From NCBI GenBank assembly GCA_913778455.1, contig CAJYVK010000221.1:1-40191 (forward strand): a stretch of DNA of 40,191 nt, given 5' to 3'. The DNA is from an uncultured Hymenobacter sp. Lineage in GTDB: Bacteria; Bacteroidota; Bacteroidia; Cytophagales; Hymenobacteraceae. A program made the translations under genes and the position numbers. Below, in pieces: positions 1,878 through 38,510 of this stretch; position 1 is the stretch's first letter, and each line of letters opens with the position of its first letter. The notes below the pieces were generated by a model. It was not told where the DNA came from and made no database searches. It saw nothing but the letters and a program-made list of their open reading frames with translations.

Positions 1878-1962
1878 TGTCATGCTGAGCTTGCGAAGCA
1901 TCTTCTCGTGCCAGGGCAATTAACCCAACTGAGAGAAGATGCTTCGCAGGCTCAGCATGACA
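1878..1962. repeat. Long palindromic repeat, family A copy 1
   Basis: Two 30-nt arms (1878-1907 and 1933-1962) are inverted copies with one mismatch, separated by 25 nt. The left arm begins TGTCATGCTGAGCTTGCG. The element lies between the HipA-like gene start and the end of the dehydrogenase gene. As RNA it would form a long hairpin on either strand. It may act as a transcription barrier or mRNA stabiliser; its dispersal points to a REP-like element. Confidence 0.95.
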
Positions 1963-10337: not shown

Positions 10338-10418
10338 GTCATGCTGACGAAGGAAGCATCTTGTCAGGGTGGAATGAAGTGTTGGGACGCGATAAGATGC
10401 TTCCTTCGTCAGCATGAC
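10338..10418. repeat. Long palindromic repeat, family A variant (copy 2)
   Basis: Two 28-nt arms (10338-10365 and 10391-10418) are inverted copies with one mismatch. They begin GTCATGCTGA like the other family members, but continue CGAAGGAAGCATCTT instead of GCTTGCGAAGCATCTT. The element lies between thrB and thrC within the threonine operon. Confidence 0.93.
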
Positions 10419-15616: not shown

Positions 15617-15694
15617 GTCATGCTGAGCTTGCGAAGCATCTTCTCACATCGGAATGGATAGGTCGGTGAAGATGGTTGGTAAGTTTGGCATGAC
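15617..15694. repeat. Family A palindrome, degenerate copy 3
   Basis: The left arm (15617-15647) is intact and identical in sequence to the common family A arm. The right arm (about 15665-15694) keeps GGTGAAGATG and GCATGAC but has lost most of the middle pairing, so the hairpin is decayed. Confidence 0.8.
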
Positions 15695-18531: not shown

Positions 18532-20065
18532 AGCGGCCGGCGGGGCGTAGTAGGCTCTGGCCGGTCATTTCGGTGGGCTGGGGCACGCCCATCAGCTCCA
18601 GCACGGTGGGAGCGATGTCGCCGAGCTTGCCGTTGGCCAGCGTGCCCTGGTAAGTGGGGTCGGCCAGGATGCAGGGTACGAGGTTGGTCGTGTGGGCCGT
18701 GTTGGGCGAGCCGTCGGCATTGCGCATAAACTCGGCGTTGCCGTGGTCGGCAATGACGATGGTCGCGTAGCCGGCCGCCAGCGCGGCCTCAATCACGTCG
18801 TGGGCGCAGGTATCAGCCGTTTCCACGGCTTTCACCACGGCCTCGAATACGCCAGTGTGACCCACCATGTCGGGGTTAGCAAAGTTGATGACCACGAAAT
18901 CGGCCGAATTGGCGCGTAGCTCGGGCACCAGGGCATCGCGCAGCTCGTAGGCGCTCATCTCCGGCGCGAGGTCGTAGGTGGCTACCTTGGGCGAGGCCCG
19001 CAGAATGCGCGTTTCGCCAGTAAATTCCTTTTCGCGGCCCCCCGAGAAAAAGAACGTCACGTGCGGATATTTTTCCGTCTCGGCCATGCGGATCTGCGTG
19101 CGGCCGTGGGCCGACAGGACTTCGCCGAGCGTGTTGTTGAGGTTGTCCTTGTCGAAAATCGGCGTTACCCCCACGAACGTCGCGTCGTAGTTCGTCATGG
19201 TGAGGTAGCGCAGGGCCAGGCGGTGCATCTGGTAGGCGTTGAAATCCTGCTGCGTGAGCGCCTCCGTGATTTCGCGGCCCCGGTCGGTGCGGAAGTTGAA
19301 GCACAGCACCACATCGCCCTCCTGAATGGTCGCCAGCGGCAAGCCGTCGGCCCCGGTCTTCACGATGGGCTTCAGGAACTCATCCGTGACACCTTCTTTG
19401 TATTGCTCCTGAATGCTTTGAATCAGGTTTTGCGAGGGCGTGCCCACGCCGTTTACGAGCAGGTCGTAAGCCACTTTCACGCGCTCCCAGCGCTGGTCGC
19501 GGTCCATGGCGTAGTAGCGACCCACGATGGAGGCGATTTTGGCCCCCGTGCGCTCGTTGTGCTGCTCCAGGTCATTGACGAAGTGCACGCCGCTCTTGGG
19601 GTCGGTATCGCGCCCATCGGTAAAGGCGTGCACGAAAACTTTGTGCACGTCGGCCTCGTGGGCGATGGTGCACAGCGCCTTTACGTGGTCGATGTGCGAG
19701 TGCACGCCACCATCCGACAGCAAGCCAATGAGATGGAAGGCCTTGTTGTTCTGCTTGGCGTACTCCAGCGCATCCTTCAGCGCGGGTACTTGGCCCAGCT
19801 TGCGCTCCTGAATGGTTTTGCCGATACGCACCAGTTCTTGGTACACCACCCGGCCAGCGCCGATGTTCATGTGGCCTACCTCCGAGTTGCCCATCTGGCC
19901 ATCGGGAAGCCCTACGGCCTCGCCCGATGCCTGCAACGTGCTGTGCGGAAAGCGATTGAGTAAGTGATGAAAATAAGGCGTCTTCGCCTTGTCAACGGCC
20001 GAAACCTCCACATTCGGGGCGATGCCCCACCCATCCAGAATAACTAAGAGGACCTGCTTGTTCAT
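18530..20065 (-). CDS. gpmI: 2,3-bisphosphoglycerate-independent phosphoglycerate mutase
   Basis: A 511-residue Mn-dependent glycolytic mutase interconverting 3- and 2-phosphoglycerate. The N-terminal metal aspartate is D11 (VILDGWGIAPN) and the phosphoserine nucleophile is S61 in GQMGNSEVGHMNIGAGR. The later metal sites NFANPDMVGHTG and VIADHGNAE are present, and the length is normal. The ATG at 20065 is preferred over an in-frame GTG two codons upstream, because the GTG abuts the -7 box and would lie upstream of the expected transcription start. Confidence 0.96.
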   Translation of the reverse strand: MNKQVLLVILDGWGIAPNVEVSAVDKAKTPYFHHLLNRFPHSTLQASGEAVGLPDGQMGNSEVGHMNIGAGRVVYQELVRIGKTIQERKLGQVPALKDALEYAKQNNKAFHLIGLLSDGGVHSHIDHVKALCTIAHEADVHKVFVHAFTDGRDTDPKSGVHFVNDLEQHNERTGAKIASIVGRYYAMDRDQRWERVKVAYDLLVNGVGTPSQNLIQSIQEQYKEGVTDEFLKPIVKTGADGLPLATIQEGDVVLCFNFRTDRGREITEALTQQDFNAYQMHRLALRYLTMTNYDATFVGVTPIFDKDNLNNTLGEVLSAHGRTQIRMAETEKYPHVTFFFSGGREKEFTGETRILRASPKVATYDLAPEMSAYELRDALVPELRANSADFVVINFANPDMVGHTGVFEAVVKAVETADTCAHDVIEAALAAGYATIVIADHGNAEFMRNADGSPNTAHTTNLVPCILADPTYQGTLANGKLGDIAPTVLELMGVPQPTEMTGQSLLRPAGR

Positions 20066-36474: not shown

Positions 36475-37434
36475 ATGGAGCCCTTACTCGCCGAAAACCC
36501 CAACCGTTTCGTGCTTTTTCCCATCCAGAACCCGCAAGTGTGGGAGTTCTACAAGAAGGCGGAAGCCTCGTTCTGGACGGCCGAAGAAATTGACCTCTCG
36601 CAGGACCAAAAGGACTGGAATAATCTGAATTCCAATGAGCAGCACTTCATCAAGCACGTGCTGGCCTTCTTCGCCGCCAGCGACGGCATCGTGAATGAGA
36701 ACCTGGCCATCAACTTCATGCAGGAAGTGCAGATGCCCGAGGCCCGCTGCTTCTACGGCTTCCAGATTATGATGGAAAACATTCACAGCGAGACGTATTC
36801 GTTGCTGATTGATACCTACATCAAAGACCCCAAGGAAAAGGATTACCTCTTCAACGCCCTCGAAACCGTGCCCGCTGTGCAGAAGAAGGGCCAGTGGGCG
36901 CTGACCTGGATCAACTCGGAAAACTTTGCCGAGCGCCTCATCGCCTTCGCCGCCGTAGAAGGCATCTTCTTCTCGGGCTCGTTCTGCTCGATCTTCTGGC
37001 TCAAGAAGCGCGGCCTCATGCCCGGCCTGACCTTCTCGAACGAGCTCATCTCGCGCGACGAAGGATTGCACTGCGACTTCGCCTGCCTGCTCTACAGCTA
37101 CCTCAACAACAAGCTGCCCGAGGCCCGCGTGCAAGCAATCATCCGCGACGCCGTAACGATTGAGCAGGAGTTCGTAACCGACGCGCTGCCCGTGAGCCTC
37201 ATCGGCATGAACGCCCGCTCGATGTCGCAGTACATCGAGTTCGTGGCCGACCGCCTGCTCGTGTCGCTGGGCTGCGGGAAGATTTACAACGCCACCAATC
37301 CCTTCGACTTCATGGAAATGATCTCGGTGCAGGGTAAGACAAATTTCTTTGAGAAACGCGTCGCCGAGTATCAGAAAGCCGGCGTAATGACCGAGCGCAA
37401 CGAAAACGTATTCTCGCTCGACGAGGACTTTTAA
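36475..37434 (+). CDS. nrdB: Class Ia ribonucleotide reductase, beta subunit
   Basis: A 319-residue di-iron subunit that holds the tyrosyl radical used by NrdA to reduce ribonucleoside diphosphates. Iron ligands are visible at D70 ([13 protein letters not shown]), E101 and H104 ([10 protein letters not shown]), then AVEGIFF and the E/H pair in RDEGLHCDF. The radical tyrosine is Y108, so this is not a tyrosine-less Ic type. The sequence resembles the eukaryote-like R2 group. nrdA is not adjacent: it starts 1.6 kb downstream, after a repeat-bracketed nuclease gene and two other genes. Confidence 0.97.
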
Positions 37435-37469
37435 GCTATTAATTTAGGTTAGTATAGCTTTTATAAACT

Positions 37470-37549
37470 GTCATGCTGAGCTTGCGAAGCATCTTCTCAC
37501 GGTTGGTTTTTCCCGATCGTGAGAAGATGCTTCGCAAGCTCAGCATGAC
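37470..37549. repeat. Long palindromic repeat, family A copy 4 (perfect)
   Basis: Two perfectly complementary 32-nt arms (37470-37501 and 37518-37549) surround a 16-nt loop. This is the best-preserved copy and lies 12 bp upstream of the GIY-YIG start. Confidence 0.97.
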
Positions 37550-37561
37550 GGTTTTTCTTTT

Positions 37562-37843
37562 ATGGCCTATTACGTTTACATCACGACTAATCCGGCTAAG
37601 CAGGTTTTGTACATTGGCGTGACAAATGATTTAGCTCGTCGTCTGGCGCAGCACTATGAGAATAGGGGGAATAGTGAGACCTTTGCGTGGCGTTACTTCT
37701 GCTATAACTTGCTGTATTTCGAGGAATTCGTAAGTATTAAAGCGGCTATCGAACGCGAAAAAGAGTTGAAAGGCTGGACACGGGCGAAAAAGGATGCGCT
37801 AATTGCCGAAGTGAATCCAAATTTGGATTTTCTGACGCTGTAG
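37562..37843 (+). CDS. Single-domain GIY-YIG nuclease
   Basis: A 93-residue protein of the small UvrC-N-like GIY-YIG group. The motif pair is degenerate at the first position (Y-V-Y-I at 4-7) and intact at the second (Y17-I18-G19). The following NDLARRLAQHY carries the conserved Arg, and EREKELKGWTRAKKDALI the catalytic Glu. No DNA-binding module is attached. The gene is clearly poorer in GC than its neighbours and is bracketed by two family A palindromes, suggesting acquisition as a unit. Cellular targets of this subfamily are not known. Confidence 0.92.
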   Translation: MAYYVYITTNPAKQVLYIGVTNDLARRLAQHYENRGNSETFAWRYFCYNLLYFEEFVSIKAAIEREKELKGWTRAKKDALIAEVNPNLDFLTL

Positions 37844-37866
37844 AAATGATAGTAACCAAAACCGTC

Positions 37867-37947
37867 CGTCATGCTGAGCTTGCGAAGCATCTTGTCACGC
37901 TAGATTTTCCCAATGGCGAGAAGATGCTTCGCAAGCTCAGCATGACG
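37867..37947. repeat. Long palindromic repeat, family A copy 5
   Basis: Arms at about 37867-37899 and 37917-37947 are inverted copies with two mismatches. It lies 23 bp after the GIY-YIG stop and has the same arm sequence as the copy upstream of that gene. Confidence 0.95.
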
Positions 37948-37988
37948 AACGTTTTTTGCAGGTGTAAGGCCTCAATGATAGCCCAACG

Positions 37989-38009
37989 GTGAGAAGATGC
38001 TGACGGACG
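37989..38009. repeat. Family A fragment
   Basis: GGTGAGAAGATGCTGACGGA keeps the inner part of a right arm (GTGAGAAGATGCT) and then breaks off, like a deletion remnant of a further copy. Confidence 0.55.
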
Positions 38010-38039
38010 TTTGGGGTTACTCTGTGGCCAATAATCGAT

Positions 38040-38510
38040 CTACATCCCCAACTCCGTCAGTCCCGGGTGGTCGGCCGGGCGCGGCCCCAGCGGCCAATGA
38101 AACTTTCGCTCGGCCTCCGCAATGGCTACGTCGTTGATGCTGGCTTCGCGGCGCTGCATGAGGCCGCGGGCGTCGAATTCCCACTGCTCATTGCCGTAGG
38201 CACGAAACCACTGGCCGGCCGCGTCGTGGTATTCGTACTGGAAGCGCACGGCGATGCGGTGTTGGTGAAAGCCCCACAGCTCCTTGATGAGGCGGTATTC
38301 CTGCTCTTTTTCCCACTTGCGGGTGAGAAAGTCGGCAATGGCGGCGCGGCCGCTGAAGAACTCGCTGCGGTTGCGCCACCGGCTGGCCTCGGTGTAGGCC
38401 AGGGCCACGCGGGCGGGGTCGCGGGAGTTCCAGGCGTCTTCGGCGAGGCGGGCTTTCTGGGTGGCGGTTTCGAAGCTGAACGGGGGCAGTGGCGGGCGGG
38501 CGTCGGACAT
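38040..38510 (-). CDS. DUF1348 / NTF2-like family protein
   Basis: A 156-residue protein of the SnoaL/NTF2-like fold, DUF1348 type. Landmarks are [33 protein letters not shown], the [19 protein letters not shown] helix and the strand-rich [34 protein letters not shown]. The C-terminal [11 protein letters not shown] and the HWPLGPRP motif complete the family. The reaction is unknown. It lies opposite to the nrd genes. Confidence 0.92.

Follow-up and report, generated by a model that had tools for sequence, protein, structure and literature searches.

Organization of the Locus

The window (the whole stretch of 40,191 nucleotides analysed here, from a Hymenobacter genome of 5.41 Mb) holds a small gene for a GIY-YIG nuclease enclosed by two long palindromes (Table 1). 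The order is nrdB, palindrome 1, the GIY-YIG open reading frame (ORF), palindrome 2 and an NTF2-like ORF; nrdB and the NTF2-like ORF are so named from their sequences. A GIY-YIG gene between two palindromes was the layout given in the original prediction, which had been made from the letters alone, and it was confirmed by repeat, ORF and Pfam analysis. Palindrome 1 has perfect arms of 32 nt each (37470–37501 and 37518–37549), which can be extended to 42 nt (37465–37506 and 37513–37554) at a complementarity of 93%. The outer 26 nt of each arm are identical in palindromes 1 and 2 and the sequences differ further in. The spacing of 12 bp between palindrome 1 and the gene was given correctly, whereas the gap to palindrome 2 (37868) is 24 bp and not 23.

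Table 1. Positions of the GIY-YIG unit, its neighbours and related repeats in the window.
Feature	Position	Strand	Remarks
nrdB (presumed)	36475–37434	+	unit sits at its 3′ junction; the junction recurs as a unit site in the genus
Palindrome 1	37465–37554		two GTCAT-tagged, REP-like arms, inverted; outer complementary AAAC left, GGTTT right
Small GIY-YIG (UPF0213-like) nuclease gene	37562–37843	+	93 aa; PF01541 match; predicted structure with pLDDT 91.9
Palindrome 2	37858–37956		REP-like arms 37868–37893 (+) and 37921–37946 (−)
Decayed half arm, same family	37982–38001		3′ of palindrome 2; from the search for direct repeats and inverted pairs
NTF2-like ORF (presumed)	38040–38510	−	
Gene-free palindrome, same family	1879–1961		also in sister genome G107
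Gene-free palindrome, other loop type	10339–10417		TCATGCTGACGAAGGAAGCAT arms; common to G107
Single arm of the family	15617–15642	+	common to G107

The gene is AT-richer than its surroundings, as predicted: its GC content is 45.0%, while the window has 62.1%, nrdB 55.7% and the next ORF 66.7%. The other palindromes of the window are indeed gene-free: two of them leave no room between their arms and the third site is a single arm. Seven matches to the 26-nt arm word (up to three mismatches) were found in the window as opposed to none in 100 shuffles, and the 22-nt arm core, at the same tolerance, gave 87 + 88 matches across the genome and none in the reversed control. A further imperfect inverted repeat (37851–37871 and 38001–38021; 21 nt, 86%, 129 nt apart) encloses palindrome 2. 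This outer repeat and the decayed half arm may be what is left of a larger element that existed earlier.

The GIY-YIG Protein

The window protein matches Pfam family PF01541 with 62.3 bits (cut-off 22.6; E = 5.5e-17). Twenty positions, among them Y17, G19, R27 and E66, are invariant across 19 sequences including the window protein. In the profile search against solved chains only the UPF0213 proteins 1zg2 and 1ywl were matched, and the fold search with the predicted model placed 1zg2 first and Slx1 next, with E < 0.001 for 1zg2 only, while the I-TevI-type homing endonuclease fold was a weak match. The protein is a minimal stand-alone GIY-YIG domain with the conserved residues, and shares sequence and fold family with the UPF0213 or prokaryotic Slx1-like proteins. 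Four PHROG families were matched, three of which are homing endonucleases. In passages of a 2006 superfamily paper (PMC1564403), 1zg2 and 1ywl were placed in the Slx1 cluster, mainly vertical inheritance was described for the Slx1-type lineage including its prokaryotic members, and the question was raised whether further members may be molecular parasites. The literature passages on UPF0213, for their part, draw no link to repeats; in this respect the present gene differs.

The dN/dS ratio is 0.07 between the window gene and its relative in G071, with synonymous sites near saturation, and 0.05 to 0.10 in those 7 of 16 comparisons that were computable, the other nine being saturated at synonymous sites. 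These codon comparisons show strong purifying selection on the protein.

Association of the Gene with Inverted Repeats

The relatives of the gene were sampled as the best 80 in the genome collection, and 473 other ORFs of the same loci were used as controls; here as in the genus and phylum tests the controls are mechanical ORFs and not annotated genes. A motif-free test, in which an inverted repeat with an ungapped score of at least 14 was sought between the 200 bp on either side, was positive for 46 of the 80 relatives and 5 of the 473 ORFs (Fisher p 2e-39). The arms were also counted by a grammar: TCAT, three bases, GA, loop, GA, complement of the three, A, and finally C or T. By this grammar, which was derived from the flanks of the same 80 loci so that the count is circular in part, an arm lies within 200 bp of 70/80 relatives in comparison to 58/473 control ORFs, and inward arms on both sides surround 41/80 as opposed to 1/473. 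The enrichment for which the original prediction proposed a test was found and is strong, both for single arms and for inverted arms on the two sides. Outside Hymenobacter and Solirubrum, an inward pair was observed for 25 of 54 relatives and for none of 313 controls. The motif-free test and the plasmid-collection and phylum samples are less circular than the grammar count on the 80.

In the genus sample, which shares species with the 80 relatives and consists of 70 of the listed matches (30 read as loci and 40 hand-picked), any arm was present at 62 loci and an inward pair at 41; the scrambled grammar gave 0. For the phylum, a GIY-YIG match was obtained in 241 of the 395 Bacteroidota genomes sampled, with at least 13 in some, which is a lower bound on copy number as 13 candidates were scored per genome. 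The phylum loci, one per genome, comprised 29 new and 40 hand-picked ones, of which 65 were tested and four of the 69 were not located. The motif-free repeat was found at 21/65 of these loci against 2/158 control ORFs (0/73 for controls away from the unit), any arm at 48/65 against 56/158 (8/73) and an inward pair at 19/65 against 4/158 (0/73). No arm by grammar was found at 10 of the 80 relatives, 8 of the 70 genus loci and 17 of the 65 phylum loci.

Structure of the Arms and Layout of the Units

Arms within 200 bp were recorded at 148 loci (150 minus two duplicates). At 40 loci, more than for any other layout, the gene is enclosed by one inward arm pair with no further arm. A palindrome lies upstream and a right arm downstream at 19 loci; the layout of the window, in which each side has arms of both directions, was seen at 18, and no arm at another 18. 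Complete palindromes on both sides, the layout of the original prediction, are thus not the most frequent one by arm count (18/148), the gene being situated in the loop of a single pair at 40/148. The window genome itself contains four ORFs that match PF01541, two small (that of the window and C23:1836) and two long (frames of 500 and 660 aa). At C23:1836, a palindrome with 34-nt arms lies just upstream of the small ORF and a right arm downstream, while nothing comparable was found within 500 bp of the two long ORFs, one of which has a 13-nt hairpin.

The variable stem triplets are complementary in 91 of 107 arms beside GIY-YIG genes (shuffles: mean 26, maximum 38), and the triplet is the same in left and right arms at 74 of 81 loci (shuffles: mean 21, maximum 33); related arms were each counted, so the covariation figures do not represent a count of events. 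The covarying pairs include TTC/GAA, GCT/AGC, CCT/AGG, GTC/GAC, CTC/GAG and TCT/AGA, and others. The constancy of the TCAT and GA...GA positions is by design, as these were fixed by the search. Judged from the base pairs, the covariation points to recognition of the folded hairpin, or to selection on it.

The arms begin with (C/T)GTC-AT in the window and at most loci, which is the terminal tag of the CGTC superfamily of REPs. A stem of at least 7 bp was present at 14 of 20 plasmid-collection loci, and the Hymenobacter stem carries a conserved GA/GA interruption and variable loops. Like members of that superfamily, the repeats are of high copy, mostly inverted dimers and intergenic; the window shows arm pairs, and the arm pattern, counted in all 120 genus genomes, ranges from 0 to 357 per strand with 0 in the reversed control. 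The text of Di Nocera et al. 2013 (PMC3733652), in the part available, describes CGTC REPs with a terminal CGTC, often TGTC or CCTC, a stem of 8–9 bp that opens with A-T pairs, a loop of 4–5, a short unpaired tail that is mostly CCA, and an arrangement mostly as inverted dimers. They were reported there from five phyla, among them Proteobacteria and Bacteroidetes, and Neisseria is one of the hosts named. The GA...GA interruption of the Hymenobacter arms is a difference, as it is not mentioned in that portion of the text. The palindromes fit a known REP superfamily, the CGTC-tagged type.

Co-Inheritance of Arm Type and Nuclease Clade

A tree was constructed from 82 Hymenobacter GIY-YIG proteins, of which 74 rows were classed by inner-arm motif and eight were without class; 23 of the 148 loci had been dropped before as they had no usable arm or full-length protein. 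The inner-arm motif requires three changes on this tree, the minimum for four classes, in comparison to a shuffled mean of 31.7, in a test that is post hoc since the classes were fixed after a first look at the tree, and on a tree that is modestly supported owing to the shortness of the protein. The class-free Mantel test is cleaner: for the 68 proteins differing by more than 3% (14 of the 82 rows were left out as within 3% of another), r is 0.65 and none of 5000 permutations was as high. The covariation and tree tests both use related sequences. In seven genomes with two or three sampled genes, nucleases of different clades carry different arm types, G077 having three. Genome-wide, the median number of c-type arms is 34.5 in the 14 genomes with a c-clade nuclease, as delimited by our choice of at least 74% identity to P0001 (next match 73%), in comparison to 0 in the 106 others (p 1e-4). 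Any c-type arm was present in 12/14 and 47/106 of these genomes, respectively, and at least 20 in 8/14 and 12/106; two of the 14 genomes with the c-clade nuclease are without c-type arms by the strict pattern. Arm type and nuclease clade are co-inherited.

These observations bear on a homing model, according to which CGTC REPs spread otherwise, and a free-standing GIY-YIG homing gene uses the REP pairs as target and homology arms, the gene-free palindromes being its empty sites. The 40 loci with the gene in the loop of one REP pair are what insertion into an empty palindrome would give, three of the four PHROG families matched are homing endonucleases, and palindromes greatly outnumber the genes and occur without them. 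GIY-YIG homing endonucleases of the I-TevI type share the catalytic domain fold, if weakly, and are a known precedent for nuclease-driven spread. As differences from these enzymes, the 93-aa protein has little beyond the domain, no intron was seen, and the unit is flanked by inverted hairpin repeats. The close co-inheritance of inner-arm motif and nuclease clade, which requires that a nuclease keep to a single arm class, speaks against the homing model, and the spread of the REPs themselves is left unexplained by it. We consider this model unlikely.

Occurrence in Other Bacteria

The plasmid collection was searched by tblastn (33 and 45 matching records in two overlapping searches) and 20 loci were read. 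Relatives were found in Rhizobium, Sinorhizobium, Shinella, Neorhizobium, Sphingobium, Novosphingobium and Azospirillum, and further in Aeromonas, Photobacterium, Salinivibrio, Neisseria, Planktothrix and Spirosoma; phage records searched for relatives gave no match. By a strict CGTC-REP rule, which was written after viewing these flanks, an inward pair surrounds the gene at 11/20 loci in comparison to 0/71 coding sequences, and any REP was found at 14/20 in comparison to 10/71, where several of the 20 loci are near-duplicates and the 71 controls come from two 40-kb stretches of two records. At the six loci with no REP by the rule, tagged or near-form hairpins were seen by eye in Planktothrix, Spirosoma and Novosphingobium, the gene of Sinorhizobium K101 has on either side a hairpin tagged CTCAT, which falls outside the strict rule, and the Rhizobium tumorigenes and Salinivibrio loci have no hairpin visible by rule or by eye. 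The pairing thus recurs in Proteobacteria and, by eye, in a cyanobacterium, and the flanking association of gene and REPs is found in several bacterial classes.

Whole records were also inspected. The 4.94 Mb of the Aeromonas caviae record contain two copies of the pattern, one lying ~60 bp before the best GIY-YIG match and the other ~20 bp beyond it, and a second, weak match (E 2e-5, 202-aa frame) is without such a hairpin. In Sinorhizobium meliloti the pattern occurs three times in 3.72 Mb, each within 350 bp of the best GIY-YIG match; CCTCAT-tagged hairpins lie, by eye, alongside a second small match, and a third match in a 680-aa frame has none of these hairpins. Both records are low-copy by the pattern used (2 and 3). 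In Neisseria gonorrhoeae the pattern occurs 127 times, with six forward-strand copies within ~900 bp of the sole GIY-YIG match.

Coincidence, or a shared preference for gene-poor, terminator-rich spots, was also considered as the source of the association. An arm near 58 of the 473 control ORFs is consistent with such a preference, and so is the nrdB 3′ junction, which attracts other genes, for example the HNH-like ORF in G107. However, inward pairs around controls number 1/473, 0/71 and 4/158 (0/73 for those away from the unit), the arm type goes with the clade of the nuclease, and the only two pattern copies of A. caviae both bracket its best GIY-YIG match. For the association itself we regard coincidence as refuted, with hardly any probability left to it.

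Two minor observations concern the sites. The N. gonorrhoeae match (L293) sits among clustered GTCATTCCCGC...GCGGGAATC repeats, which are presumably neisserial dRS3. In Azospirillum the GIY-YIG gene and its REPs lie between sufB and sufC, and in a Shinella record the gene follows an upstream coding end very similar to that of Azospirillum, hinting from sequence likeness that the two units share an insertion site.

The nrdB Junction and Mobility

Comparison of the best 30 nrdB loci showed that the gene with arms is present at the 3′ junction in six (the window, G071, G081, G009, G029 and G102), the copies in G081 and G102 containing stop codons, and a palindrome alone in one (G068). The unit is absent from the stretch examined at 23 of the 30 loci (for G108, 119 bp only), and at the G033 locus an arm lies ~330 bp further on. 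Sister genomes differ: G071 has the unit and G087 a terminator-like hairpin, G081 has the unit and G079 is without it, and G107, the closest to the window genome among the nrdB loci, has the HNH-like ORF in place of the unit. By the junction comparison proposed along with the original prediction, gene and arms are thus found together at this site (both at 6/30 loci, a palindrome without the gene at 1/30). By eye, a GIY-YIG match lies 130–271 bp beyond nrdB in at least 13 of the genomes listed, eight in the same direction and five in the opposite one, and this points to insertion at the junction on more than one occasion.

The same junction bears on a host-function model, in which a resident enzyme acts on REP hairpins of DNA or RNA by trimming or removing them and is itself controlled by the REPs on its flanks, with neither partner being selfish. 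The strong purifying selection described above is in line with this model, as are hairpins at gene ends and, beside nrdB, at the place occupied by a terminator-like hairpin in relatives. The patchy occurrence, the at least 13 copies in some genomes, the copies with stop codons and the presence or absence of the unit at one orthologous site argue against it, and the model appears improbable to us.

REP pairs vary in presence and absence at orthologous sites of sister species. For gene-free pairs, four clear cases were found in G092 as compared with G008, one in G107 as compared with the window, and two in G072 as compared with G073. In one shared element both arms have changed together, one orthologous site carries different REP families in two species, and where a sister seems to lack a pair, the site in some cases holds decayed arms or a different REP family. 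The G072/G073 pair has long blocks mostly 98–99.5% identical over 400 kb and shares 13 forward arms; of its differences, one palindrome lies in a replaced segment and one within a longer inverted repeat of the flank. This pair was rejected for defining the junction, its differences being too few and too complex, and more distant sister pairs gave presence/absence cases and no clean junction. A target-site duplication was not definable from filled and empty sites, since the flanks are too diverged or rearranged. In G072 near 18720–18880 (L190), a small GTCAT palindrome that is absent in G073 sits inside an inverted flank duplication of ~30 bp; by analogy, template switching at a hairpin would leave such a duplication.

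Relation to Known Systems and Proposed Mechanism

Among the nearest known systems are REPtrons (GTAG REPs with RAYT), in which, as here, one enzyme gene is flanked by its paired REPs. Repeat-specific enzymes where REP families coexist, and REP genomes without the enzyme, are further likenesses described in the portion of PMC3733652 considered. The differences are in the enzyme, RAYT being an HUH tyrosine transposase and the present one a GIY-YIG nuclease, and in the tag, GTAG there and GTC(AT) here. As the enzyme has a GIY-YIG domain and is no HUH/Y1 transposase, the unit does not qualify as a REPtron if the term is used strictly. The parallel to REP/RAYT that was drawn at the outset, with another class of enzyme, fits these findings. 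Gene-free palindromes that share arms with a gene-bearing relative also resemble MITEs, with the difference that there is no transposase here and no target-site duplication was definable. Rhizobial, Neisseria and Aeromonas hairpins found here fit the CGTC-tagged REPs of PMC3733652, passages of which state that these ‘apparently lack a dedicated transposase’ and name no associated enzyme; here there is a GIY-YIG gene. The term ‘GIY’ is absent from the main text of PMC3733652, PMC12306157 (RepRanger 2025) and PMC6006769 (2018 HuH survey) by term search, and no title or abstract opening linking GIY-YIG genes to REPs was found among the papers listed from the literature searched, preprints and most subscription papers being outside its scope.

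The pairing is not due to chance, and its best reading is a second REP-plus-enzyme system. In this reading, to which we assign a probability of roughly 0.62, gene and palindromes together form a single system, and the nuclease would recognise REP hairpins and spread them through host repair. A palindrome would consist of two CGTC-tagged REPs in inverted orientation, with the tag GTC and a hairpin that opens with A-T. Having REPs on both of its sides, the gene would constitute the autonomous unit, and the gene-free REP pairs would be its non-autonomous derivatives. GIY-YIG enzymes are hydrolytic nucleases and not strand-transfer enzymes, and insertion at new sites would therefore need help. The nuclease, whose fold is closest to those of UPF0213 and Slx1, would most likely recognise the hairpin extruded in single-stranded or cruciform DNA; Slx1 processes branched DNA according to the titles of structure entries, so a hairpin or cruciform would suit as substrate. 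It would then nick or cut at the extruded REP hairpin, and the repair of this break, through copying, template switching or conversion, could spread the REP pair and occasionally the gene too, the new REP sites being probably intergenic and terminator-like. Recognition, cleavage and cleavage-driven spread by the nuclease are what we infer, and so is any order in which the gene-bearing and gene-free forms arose. The earlier interpretation is thus borne out in part: the association and the parallel to REP/RAYT stand, and its mechanism does not share in that support.

The recurrence of the pairing in many unrelated bacteria makes the nuclease a candidate for the partner enzyme that an old and widespread class of bacterial repeats has lacked. 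CGTC REPs occur in many genomes and are without a known enzyme in the passages of PMC3733652 and in the literature searched. A specific partner makes the spread of CGTC REPs a bench-testable question. Such a partner would further point to a role for a small-nuclease family that is common, being found in more than half of the Bacteroidota genomes sampled (241/395), and would mean that the enzyme of a REP-plus-enzyme system can belong to a class from which no transposition chemistry is expected. A broader proposition, for which we see even odds, is that UPF0213-type GIY-YIG nucleases are the missing enzymes of CGTC REPs across bacteria, forming a second, independently evolved REP system that would spread by hydrolytic hairpin cutting and host repair copying without transposase chemistry; this system would take in the repeat clusters of Neisseria as well as the rhizobial GTCATCC...GGATCC hairpins.

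RAYT-Type Loci and Genomes without the Gene

The reading of gene and palindromes as one system has to be compared with movement of these REPs by RAYT or another transposase, the GIY-YIG gene being a passenger. The window genome contains four matches to Y1 transposases of the RAYT type, which gives this alternative its footing, but none of the four loci (2.6–3.2 kb each) holds an arm by grammar, and other repeats are found there. Moreover, in the part of the 2013 survey available (PMC3733652), no RAYT gene is flanked by CGTC REPs and a few associations with other transposase genes are described as fortuitous. Transposition by RAYT is therefore disfavoured and, in our view, very improbable.

A GIY-YIG match was not detected in 21 of the 120 genus genomes, four of these 21 being only 81–83% complete. 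Two near-complete genus genomes without a match have 706 and 438 arm matches, and the median number of arms per genome is 145 with the gene and 74 without (p 0.027), a difference of only about twofold. The tie between gene and palindromes is thus upheld as an association but is not strict genome by genome, as some genomes in which no GIY-YIG match was detected are rich in palindromes. By analogy, gene-less REP-rich genomes may resemble orphan REPs after loss of RAYT; REPs moving by another route would fit equally. Finally, a AGCGCGGACTCTGCGAGTCCGC hairpin beside one of the RAYT-type loci (L037 of L035–L038) also adjoins nrdB in G067.
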